Assembly (NCBI RefSeq): GCF_002028425.1
Contig: NZ_CP020042.1
Span: 7,105,560-7,169,559, forward strand
Reading direction: 5' to 3'
Source of the DNA: Streptomyces katrae
Lineage (GTDB): Bacteria; Actinomycetota; Actinomycetes; Streptomycetales; Streptomycetaceae
DNA length: 64,000 nt
The translations under genes and the position numbers were made by a program. The first letter of the stretch is position 1; each line of letters opens with the position of its first letter. Shown in pieces: positions 10,443 to 52,294 of this stretch. The notes beneath the pieces are model-generated. The model was given only the letters and a program-made list of their open reading frames with translations, searched no databases and was not told where the DNA came from.

Positions 10443-10607
10443 ATGTGCCACCCCGCGTGGGCCCGCGCCCGCATCGCCGCCCTGCCCCCGGACGGCCCCG
10501 CCCGGCCGGACGAAGTCCCCGGGCCGGCCGGCCGTGACGGCGGGCCGGCACCGGAAGCCGGCTCTCCCGCCCGTGAACTCCTCACGCCCGCCGGACAGCC
10601 GCACTAG
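10443..10607 (+). CDS. Short hypothetical ORF ending in the IS target site
   Basis: 54 residues (MCHPAWARARIAALPPDG...) after AGGAG at good spacing. It is Pro- and Ala-rich with no recognised domain. Its TAG stop (10605-10607) lies inside the 6-bp target duplication of the insertion sequence, so the insertion leaves the reading frame complete. It may be a real small protein or a chance ORF; the ribosome-binding site is the main support. Confidence 0.4.
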   Translation: MCHPAWARARIAALPPDGPARPDEVPGPAGRDGGPAPEAGSPARELLTPAGQPH

Positions 10608-10608
10608 G
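10603..10608. repeat. Target site duplication, left (IS copy 1)
   Basis: ACTAGG, repeated exactly at 11680-11685. It matches the NCTAGN target known for IS481. Confidence 0.9.
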
Positions 10609-11679
10609 TGTATTGCCCTGGGAGGTTGTGGACGGGTGACGCAGGTCTCGGCTGAGGGATCTTGAACGGGTGAGGGCCTTCCGGGTTCGGTGTGGATTGC
10701 GACGTCTACACCGACCAGCAGAAGGCTCTCATGCCCCACCGTAATGCACCCCTGACCGAGACCGGACGCCTTCGCCTGGCCCGCTGCGTGGTCGAGGACG
10801 GCTGGCCGCTGCGCCGGGCGGCCGAGCGATTCCAGGTCTCGCCCACCACCGCCCAGCGGTGGGCGGCCCGCTACCGGGCCGGGGGTGAGGCCGGAATGAC
10901 CGACCGGTCCTCGCGCCCGCACACCAGCCCACGCCGGACCCCGACCCGCATCGAGCGGCGGATCATCAAGGTCCGCCTCGCCCGCCGGTGGGGGCCCGCC
11001 CGCATCGCCCACCTGCTCAACCTGGTGCCCTCGACGGTGCACCGGATCCTGACCCGGTTCGGCCTGGCCCGTCTCACGCACCTGGACCGGGCCACCGGCG
11101 CCGTCATACGCCGCTACGAACGCGACCGTCCGGGCGAGCTGGTCCACGTGGACATCAAGAAGCTCGGCAACATCCCCGACGGCGGCGGCCACAAGACCCT
11201 CGGCCGCCAGGCCGGCCGCAAGAACCGCTCCAGCGCCGGCTACAGCTACATCCACACCGCCGTCGACGACCACTCCCGCCTCGCTTACAGCGAGATCCAC
11301 GCCGACGAGAAGAAGGAGACCGCCACCGCCTTCTGGGCCCGGGCCCAGGCCTACTTCGCCGGCGTGGGCATCACCGTCGAACGGGTCCTGACCGACAACG
11401 GCGCCTGCTACCGCTCCCGCGACTGGCGCGACGCCCTGACAGCGGCCGGAATCGCCCACAAGCGAACCCGGCCCTACCGGCCCCAGACCAACGGCAAGGT
11501 CGAACGCCTCAACCGGACCCTGCTCGAGGAGTGGGCCTACGCCCGCCCCTACCACTCAGAGCAGGAACGACGCGACGCCTTCCCTGGCTGGCTCCACACC
11601 TACAATCACCACCGCGGACACACCGCACTCGCAGGCAAACCACCCGCCAGCCGCGTCCCCAACCTCACAGGGCAGTACA
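10609..11679 (+). mobile_element. IS481-family insertion sequence, copy 1 (1071 bp)
   Basis: The ends are TGTATTGCCC (left) and, read inward from the right, TGTACTGCCC. The 26-bp terminal inverted repeats (10609-10634 and 11654-11679) match at 23 positions. It is flanked by the 6-bp duplication ACTAGG and carries one transposase on the plus strand. Copy 2 at 51218-52288 is inverted, the same length and nearly identical; I noticed two synonymous differences (CGG/CGC and GCT/GCC codons). The element itself contains no stop codon for its transposase. Confidence 0.95.
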
Positions 11680-11684
11680 ACTAG
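10731..11684 (+). CDS. IS481-family transposase (copy 1)
   Basis: 317 residues from the ATG at 10731 (AGAAGG 6 nt upstream; an upstream GTG at 10692 would add 13). The N-terminal helix-turn-helix has LRRAAERFQVSPTTAQRWAARY, and a second winged segment has RIAHLLNLVPSTVHRIL. The DDE catalytic core is HVDIKK (D141), VLTDNGACYRS (D222) and GKVERLNRTL (E258), with 35 residues between the last two, as in IS481 and retroviral-type integrases. The final codon and TAG stop (11682-11684) lie in the target duplication, so the last residue here is Asn; in copy 2 it is Thr. Intact and presumably active. Confidence 0.95.
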   Translation: MPHRNAPLTETGRLRLARCVVEDGWPLRRAAERFQVSPTTAQRWAARYRAGGEAGMTDRSSRPHTSPRRTPTRIERRIIKVRLARRWGPARIAHLLNLVPSTVHRILTRFGLARLTHLDRATGAVIRRYERDRPGELVHVDIKKLGNIPDGGGHKTLGRQAGRKNRSSAGYSYIHTAVDDHSRLAYSEIHADEKKETATAFWARAQAYFAGVGITVERVLTDNGACYRSRDWRDALTAAGIAHKRTRPYRPQTNGKVERLNRTLLEEWAYARPYHSEQERRDAFPGWLHTYNHHRGHTALAGKPPASRVPNLTGQYN

Positions 11685-11685
11685 G
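11680..11685. repeat. Target site duplication, right (IS copy 1)
   Basis: ACTAGG, identical to 10603-10608. It supplies the last base pair of the final sense codon and the TAG stop of the transposase. Confidence 0.9.
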
Positions 11686-50673: not shown

Positions 50674-51216
50674 ATGCTGACAGGCGACAAGGTCGGGCTC
50701 AGGGCCCGCTTCGACGAGGACATCCCGCTCCTGCGGACCGAGCTCTACGACGACGTGGTCAACTCCTCGCGCTCCGAGGCCGGGCCGTGGCGGCCGGTGA
50801 CCCCCGGAACGCAGGACCCGCGGCTCGTGGTCGACGAGAAGCAGGAGCGGAGCGTCTCGTTCTCCGTGGTGGAGCTGGACGGCGGCACGCTCATCGGCTC
50901 CGCCACGCTGTGGGGCATCGACAACCACAACCGCAACGCCCACATCGGGCTGGGCCTGTTCCCGGCCGCTCGCGGCAAGGGGTACGGCACCGACGTGGTA
51001 GCGGTCCTGTGCCACTACGGGTTCACCGTCCGCGGCTTCCAGCGGCTGCAGATCGAAACCCTCGCGGACAACGCCGCCATGCTGCGCTCCGCCGAGCGCA
51101 ACGGCTTCGTCCGCGAGGGCGTACTGCGCAACTCGGCCTGGGTGATGGGCGAGTTCCTGGACCAGGTGCTCCTCGGGCTCCTCGTCCAGGACTGGAAGCA
51201 GGCCCCGGCGCGCTAG
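50674..51216 (+). CDS. GNAT acetyltransferase (RimJ/RimL type)
   Basis: 180 residues. MLTGDKVGLRARFDEDIPLL at the start, motif A GLGLFPAARGKGYGTDVVAVLCHYGF and LQIETLADNAAMLRSAERNGFVREGVLRNSAWV (motif B). This is the ribosomal-protein/aminoglycoside-type GNAT family. Its TAG stop lies in the CTAG of the IS copy 2 target duplication and, on the other strand, the same palindrome is the transposase stop. The gene is therefore complete despite the insertion. Confidence 0.85.
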   Translation: MLTGDKVGLRARFDEDIPLLRTELYDDVVNSSRSEAGPWRPVTPGTQDPRLVVDEKQERSVSFSVVELDGGTLIGSATLWGIDNHNRNAHIGLGLFPAARGKGYGTDVVAVLCHYGFTVRGFQRLQIETLADNAAMLRSAERNGFVREGVLRNSAWVMGEFLDQVLLGLLVQDWKQAPAR

Positions 51217-51217
51217 G
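51212..51217. repeat. Target site duplication, left (IS copy 2)
   Basis: GCTAGG, repeated exactly at 52289-52294. Contains stop codons for both the GNAT gene and the transposase. Confidence 0.9.
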
Positions 51218-52166
51218 TGTACTGCCCTGTGAGGTTGGGGACGCGGCTGGCGGGTGGTTTGCCTGCGAGTGCGGTGTGTCCGCGGTGGTGATTGTAGGTG
51301 TGGAGCCAGCCAGGGAAGGCGTCGCGTCGTTCCTGCTCTGAGTGGTAGGGGCGGGCGTAGGCCCACTCCTCGAGCAGGGTCCGGTTGAGGCGTTCGACCT
51401 TGCCGTTGGTCTGGGGCCGGTAGGGCCGGGTTCGCTTGTGGGCGATTCCGGCCGCTGTCAGGGCGTCGCGCCAGTCGCGGGAGCGGTAGCAGGCGCCGTT
51501 GTCGGTCAGGACCCGTTCGACGGTGATGCCCACGCCGGCGAAGTAGGCCTGGGCCCGGGCCCAGAAGGCGGTGGCGGTCTCCTTCTTCTCGTCGGCGTGG
51601 ATCTCGCTGTAAGCGAGGCGGGAGTGGTCGTCGACGGCGGTGTGGATGTAGCTGTAGCCGGCGCTGGAGCGGTTCTTGCGGCCGGCCTGGCGGCCGAGGG
51701 TCTTGTGGCCGCCGCCGTCGGGGATGTTGCCGAGCTTCTTGATGTCCACGTGGACCAGCTCGCCCGGACGGTCGCGTTCGTAGCGGCGTATGACGGCGCC
51801 GGTGGCGCGGTCCAGGTGCGTGAGACGGGCCAGGCCGAACCGGGTCAGGATCCGGTGCACCGTCGAGGGCACCAGGTTGAGCAGGTGGGCGATGCGGGCG
51901 GGCCCCCACCGGCGGGCGAGGCGGACCTTGATGATCCGCCGCTCGATGCGGGTCGGGGTCCGGCGTGGGCTGGTGTGCGGGCGCGAGGACCGGTCGGTCA
52001 TTCCGGCCTCACCCCCGGCCCGGTAGCGGGCCGCCCACCGCTGGGCGGTGGTGGGCGAGACCTGGAATCGCTCGGCCGCCCGGCGCAGCGGCCAGCCGTC
52101 CTCGACCACGCAGCGGGCCAGGCGAAGGCGTCCGGTCTCGGTCAGGGGTGCATTACGGTGGGGCAT
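51213..52166 (-). CDS. IS481-family transposase (copy 2)
   Basis: 317 residues, identical in sequence to the copy 1 protein except the final residue (Thr instead of Asn), which is encoded by the target duplication. Same HTH and DDE residues (D141, D222, E258). The TAG stop (complement of 51213-51215) overlaps the GNAT stop on the opposite strand within one CTAG. Presumably active. Confidence 0.95.
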   Translation of the reverse strand: MPHRNAPLTETGRLRLARCVVEDGWPLRRAAERFQVSPTTAQRWAARYRAGGEAGMTDRSSRPHTSPRRTPTRIERRIIKVRLARRWGPARIAHLLNLVPSTVHRILTRFGLARLTHLDRATGAVIRRYERDRPGELVHVDIKKLGNIPDGGGHKTLGRQAGRKNRSSAGYSYIHTAVDDHSRLAYSEIHADEKKETATAFWARAQAYFAGVGITVERVLTDNGACYRSRDWRDALTAAGIAHKRTRPYRPQTNGKVERLNRTLLEEWAYARPYHSEQERRDAFPGWLHTYNHHRGHTALAGKPPASRVPNLTGQYT

Positions 52167-52288
52167 GAGGGCCTTCTGCTGGTCGGTGTAGACGTCGCAA
52201 TCCACACCGAACCCGGAAGGCCCTCACCCGTTCAAGATCCCTCAGCCGAGACCTGCGTCACCCGTCCACAACCTCCCAGGGCAATACA
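51218..52288 (-). mobile_element. IS481-family insertion sequence, copy 2 (1071 bp)
   Basis: Same length, ends and gene as copy 1 but inverted, flanked by GCTAGG on both sides. The terminal inverted repeats are 51218-51243 and 52263-52288. Its target duplication differs from that of copy 1 (ACTAGG), so the two insertions were separate events. It lies between a GNAT gene and katG, 43 nt beyond the katG stop. Confidence 0.95.
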
Positions 52289-52294
52289 GCTAGG
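52289..52294. repeat. Target site duplication, right (IS copy 2)
   Basis: GCTAGG, identical to 51212-51217. Confidence 0.9.

Follow-up and report, generated by a model that had tools for sequence, protein, structure and literature searches.

The window analysed here, a 64,000-nucleotide stretch of Streptomyces katrae DNA, contains two copies of one insertion sequence, each 1071 bp long. Copy 1 occupies positions 10609..11679 on the forward strand and has the ends TGTATTGCCC...GGGCAGTACA, with 14 of the 16 terminal bases complementary between left and right end. It is bracketed by the target duplication ACTAGG, at 10603..10608 on the left and at 11680..11685 on the right. Copy 2 lies on the reverse strand (51218..52288) between duplications with the sequence GCTAGG, one at its transposase end (51212..51217) and one at the opposite end (52289..52294). 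The element shows the features of the IS481 family: TG...CA ends, imperfect inverted repeats and a single transposase reading frame. Membership is corroborated by the copy 1 transposase, which matches NF033577 at 372 bits (cut-off 224) and has PF13011 and rve domains. Residues D141, D222 and E258 are invariant across a 12-member transposase alignment, and we take them to be the catalytic DDE triad of IS481 transposases.

The first in-frame stop of the transposase gene lies outside the element in both copies. In copy 1 the gene runs from 10731 to 11684 on the forward strand and encodes 317 amino acids from the ATG at 10731, which is the start adopted here (a GTG at 10692 also fits the open frame). 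Its last codon, AAC (11679-11681), draws two bases from the right duplication. The same duplication supplies the stop, a TAG at 11682..11684 that is contained in it entirely. The copy 2 gene (51213..52166, reverse strand) also encodes 317 amino acids from an ATG that was placed by offset from copy 1. It ends with ACC and a TAG at 51213-51215 on the minus strand, again within the duplication, where CTAG reads as TAG on either strand. There are two internal differences between the copies (10727 and 11090), both silent when translation is taken from the GTG at 10692. The sole difference between the two proteins is therefore the last residue, Asn (A plus AC) in copy 1 and Thr (A plus CC) in copy 2. 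The first-pass annotation had proposed this anatomy, namely an IS481-family element that takes its stop and last residue from an NCTAGN duplication and so ends in Asn or Thr with the proteins otherwise identical. Both copies confirm it, as do all of the full copies found in the source genome (see below).

The host sequence beside the insertions has some features of its own. A gene convergent with the copy 2 transposase (50674..51216, forward strand) encodes a protein of 180 amino acids with a GNAT acetyltransferase domain (PF13302, 65 bits). Here one palindromic CTAG (51213-51216) ends two convergent genes, the transposase on the minus strand and the acetyltransferase-like gene on the plus strand. 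To the left of copy 1, an open frame of 54 codons (10443-10607) ends exactly in the left duplication. It has no NCBIfam match and may not be a gene.

The source genome yielded six full copies. None has a transposase stop of its own and all six stop in the right repeat, with N, T, S, T, T, and S as the last residues. The repeat is an exact 6-bp NCTAGN in five of the six; in the other (L005) it is one base off, CCTAGT on one side and CCTAGG on the other. Right ends in 199 Streptomyces genomes show the same arrangement across the genus. The search pattern fixes the element side only and does not allow T as its final base, and the tails of the 150 matches listed were transcribed by hand. Among these 150, NCTAG comes next in 133 and an in-frame stop occurs there in 138. 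The stop at the junction is more than chance. The 17 listed right ends without CTAG comprise six CTGG, three CTAA, two CTAC, and six other sequences seen once each, and five of the 17 still yield a stop. Twelve listed right ends lack a stop. Nine of these are truncated or frame-damaged relics, one (G049) matches at full length and carries an internal TGA, and two (L047 and L044) are full-length open frames. L044 has no stop at its junction and a left end that is not recognisable; L047 is described later.

The CTGG right ends are six truncated Streptomyces relics (L241-L246) with NCTGG in place of NCTAG. NCCAG is present in none of the listed right ends, though NCTGG and NCCAG are both single transitions of the palindrome. 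A shared downstream gene was considered for the six, but their downstream sequences do not match one another and they look like separate relics.

The junctions of relatives were surveyed at 254 loci, all gathered as relatives of a single protein; they come from other Streptomyces, from further Actinobacteria and from plasmids. Ends were called by a rule based on TG...CA, the inverted repeat and a 6-bp repeat; CTAG was not used. Of the 254, 97 were set aside: the ends could not be resolved for 38, the transposase was partial in 33, no transposase matched in 16 and 10 were duplicates. Translation across the 3' junctions, the check that had been proposed for the claim, places the stop in the repeat in 123 of the 137 copies that have called ends and an exact 6-bp repeat. 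Of the remaining 14, 10 have an internal stop close to the right end, one (L029) stops prematurely and looks frame-damaged, and three read through. The internal stop is genuine in nine copies, which span six lineages, and the tenth (L151) looks frame-damaged. Among the read-through copies, L027 is probably frame-damaged and L175 is probably a false end call, whereas L047 is real. A further 20 copies have a repeat with one mismatch. Eleven of them stop in the repeat, two stop inside (L224, which is real, and L046, whose end is probably miscalled) and seven read through. These seven, most of which have weak ends, were treated as probable false end calls. L046, L175, and several of the one-mismatch calls have weak GC-rich ends. 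Conversely, the rule miscalled the ends of L248 and L026, which are intact and have a stop at the junction (GCTAA and CATAG, respectively).

When exact and one-mismatch copies are taken together, the stop is in phase +2 in 134 of the 157 copies with called ends. The core of the repeat in these 134 is CTAG in 130, CTAA in three and TTAG in one. Named elements with the same junction include ISMav3, ISCmi2, IS1649, ISRel2, and ISBcen26. Our claims concern the CTAG-targeting branch; ten distant members with 28-35% identity (L198, L201, L203, L204, L205, L207, L211, L213, L214, and L216) have unresolved or doubtful ends.

The C-termini of the proteins can be read in the same way. A codon of the form ANC can encode exactly four residues: T, S, N, and I. 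Among the best 120 relatives of the window protein (its own entry included), 106 end in one of these four. Eleven stop one residue short, and all of them are named 'partial' and come from contigs of 1045-1072 bp, on which the contig seems to stop where the element stops. The other three end otherwise. Among the best 120 relatives of the ISBcen26 transposase, which represents the ISBcen26/IS481 group, 115 have S, T, N, or I as the last residue, and H precedes it in 114. The other five consist of one ending in C, one ending in V and three with different tails (P0173, P0181, and P0198). P0173, from a metagenome, passes the usual end of the element, and by eye its tail resembles the end of a dehydrogenase. 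The borrowed stop explains both the differences in last residue among otherwise near-identical transposases and the 'partial' transposase calls in collapsed assemblies.

How often has the arrangement changed? A tree was made from 60 transposases, each less than 85% identical to the others and with the last 12 residues removed. The lineages are mostly from Actinobacteria, with Proteobacteria accounting for 5 of 60. Thirteen loci had been removed by hand, L047 because its frame enters the flank and the others for damage or doubtful ends (L026, L027, L029, L046, L106, L151, L161, L165, L175, L204, L213, and L248). The stop lies in the repeat in 53 of the 60 lineages, across diverged C-termini, and is internal in seven. 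The fewest changes that account for this distribution number three (bootstrap range 3-4); shuffles need a mean of 6.7-6.8, and a number as low was reached in 0 of 500. The tree suggests that, within the CTAG-targeting branch, borrowing the stop came first and an internal stop was gained on about three occasions, with the direction and exact number of changes uncertain on a tree that is midpoint-rooted, has no true root and contains long branches (L208, L209, L210, and L224). In the sampled CTAG-targeting IS481 elements, then, a borrowed stop is the usual state, with about three switches to an internal one.

The internal-stop lineages are G007, IS1122, G242, Tessaracoccus, Mycolicibacterium chubuense, G344, and G220. 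Their stops fall 7-26 nt before the right end. The target is CTAG in six of the seven and GGTAGC in G242. Therefore, an internal stop is compatible with the same target. The IS1122-like copies L054, L097, L200, L223, and L224 form one group in the tree with moderate support (86/79). An internal TGA is located 12-15 nt before the right end in the first four and 26 nt before it in L224.

A stop borrowed from the target duplication has already been published for related IS481 elements. The available passages of a 2008 report describe the arrangement for ISLxc2 and ISLxx4, IS481-family elements of Leifsonia xyli, and cite the 1998 paper on Tn5564 (PMC2516522). According to the same passages, ISLxc2 has an additional in-frame stop near its start, whereas the window element has none there. 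For ISRe46/TnRErm46 of Rhodococcus equi, also of the IS481 family, excerpts of a 2019 paper state that the TAG of the right repeat is the transposase stop (PMC6794481). As described in those excerpts, this element shares the CTAG target with the window element and its left repeat closes some host genes, but TnRErm46 is a 6.9-kb transposon with cargo genes whereas the window element is a bare 1071 bp (PMC6794481). IS5564 (Tn5564; Tauch, 1998) has the junction ...CATCACA/TCTAGG, in the same phase as the window element, with the end placed by homology. It belongs to a chloramphenicol-resistance transposon, and its transposase is about 55% identical to that of the window. For IS481 of Bordetella pertussis, the portion of PMC3053399 that was available gives an NCTAGN consensus and an insertion of IS481a at CCTAAC. 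The IS481 transposase is much diverged and is known here from protein rows, two of which end in NLLTVHT and NLLTVHS. IS1122-like elements of Clavibacter and others share the family, the TGT...ACA ends and the CTAG target (one is at GGTAGC) but differ in having their own TGA, 12-15 nt short of the right end. Within the open-licence papers searched, neither the breadth of the arrangement nor a count of its changes was found. A search of the same literature for a precedent in the IS5 family, which the first-pass annotation had mentioned, returned no matching paper. Breadth across relatives is what the present analysis adds.

We consider it very probable that this is an ordinary CTAG-targeting IS481 element whose palindromic CTAG target is so close to obligatory that the gene needs no stop of its own. 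The steps are as follows. The transposase gene spans the right terminal repeat and stays open up to the final base of the element. Insertion into NCTAGN duplicates six bases, so that the right flank starts with NCTAG. With a fixed reading phase, NCTAG completes the codon ANC and then provides TAG. CTAG is its own reverse complement, and therefore both orientations of insertion work. Because the target is nearly invariant, an internal stop would be dispensable, although some stop is presumably maintained by selection, as no counter-examples are present in the sample. On this view the strict choice of target produces the borrowed stop as a side effect, and the stop would not control that choice. 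What was observed directly is the anatomy, how far it is conserved and where exceptions occur.

What if the stop does more than end the protein? One scenario is that the ancestor of all CTAG-targeting IS481 elements already had the borrowed stop, that this state is actively maintained, that transposases given a tail by off-target insertion transpose poorly and that the gene structure thereby proofreads the target. We think this unlikely. A related claim, made in the first-pass annotation, is that the transposase is complete only when the element sits at CTAG, which couples expression to target choice. In this scenario, only correct CTAG insertions would yield a normal transposase, and mistargeted copies would make a poor, tailed enzyme and be silenced. 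In favour of this, without the stop in the repeat the next in-frame stop is a median of 49 codons further on (quartiles 19 and 110, from 129 of 134 copies). Five of the 134 have no further stop in the available flank and nine would gain a tail of at most five codons. Mistargeting would therefore usually add a long tail, and a cost is plausible. Moreover, open full-length frames among the 12 listed stop-less right ends are confined to L047 and L044. However, relics are expected to be older and mutated, which accounts for the lost stops without silencing. The lineages with internal stops retain CTAG or near-CTAG targets, and the second-best sites CTAA and TTAG provide a stop anyway.

Off-target insertions bear on the same claim. 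Exact-repeat copies with credible ends that retain the stop at non-NCTAGN sites are found at CCTAAG, at CCTAAC twice and at GTTAGA. CTAA and TTAG also give a stop, and therefore normal-length transposases occur at non-CTAG insertions. The other non-NCTAGN sites with exact repeats and credible ends are GGTAGC, which belongs to the internal-stop type, and TCTACC, the site of L047. L047 (G092:C1:390041) is an intact copy that shows no difference over 1053 bp from six siblings located at CTAG, all of which stop in the repeat. It is the only exact-repeat copy with credible ends and an undamaged frame that has neither an internal stop nor one in the repeat. Its frame continues for 95 codons into a uvrA-like gene. 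The product of that gene matches the end of UvrA (NF001503 positions 855-941 of 943) at 111.8 bits, a score under the full-length cut-off, as a fragment should give, and has no Pfam match. An orientation test on 392 genomes, which compares one duplex site read in its two directions, gave 14 NCTAY and 2 NRTAG pattern matches, but just 2 and 1, respectively, beside a transposase. One of these two NCTAY junctions belongs to an intact element and the other to a truncated one. Thus relatives with internal stops, stops made by CTAA or TTAG and the read-through of L047 all speak against completeness at CTAG alone, and both kinds of case named beforehand as counter to it, internal-stop relatives and normal-length transposases at non-CTAG sites, exist. 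Coupling by this route is improbable. If the borrowed stop did affect activity, it would tie the quality of the enzyme to the choice of target by simple genetic means.

Another idea is that CTAG is chosen for the safety of the host. The target would be harmless to host genes, often being their own stop (C plus TAG) and rebuilt by the duplication, and the transposase stop would be a side benefit. The gene convergent with copy 2 and the 54-codon frame left of copy 1 both end in the repeats, and TnRErm46 insertions likewise close parB in the excerpts of PMC6794481. Among the 142 copies with CTAG in the left repeat, the TAG of that repeat is the end of an open frame of 100 codons or more in 63; for the other two frames the counts are 42 and 16. 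Other CTAGs in the flanks end such a frame in 56 of 183 cases, a difference from the 63 of 142 that gives Fisher p = 0.015 with related copies and no correction. However, right repeats close such frames in 40 of 139 copies, which is no excess over the other flank CTAGs (p = 0.81), and no excess is seen when both sides are pooled (103 of 281 against 56 of 183, p = 0.19), again with copies that are related and p-values that are uncorrected. Host safety is thus a very improbable reason for the target. The direct comparison of left (63/142) and right (40/139) repeats gives p = 0.009, uncorrected and with related copies. Perhaps the element tends to sit behind host genes, oriented as they are.

That the TAG is in frame by coincidence, or that a damaged copy lost its stop, is barely credible, since chance would give a workable phase one time in three but phase +2 recurs in 134 of 157 copies and 53 of 60 lineages and six near-identical copies share the arrangement in one genome. 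A redundant internal stop at a nearly obligatory CTAG remains our preferred reading.

A last observation concerns Mycobacterium rhizamassiliense. Both of its copies (L132 and L133) are at CTAA/TTAG sites, and this lineage may have a slightly shifted target preference.
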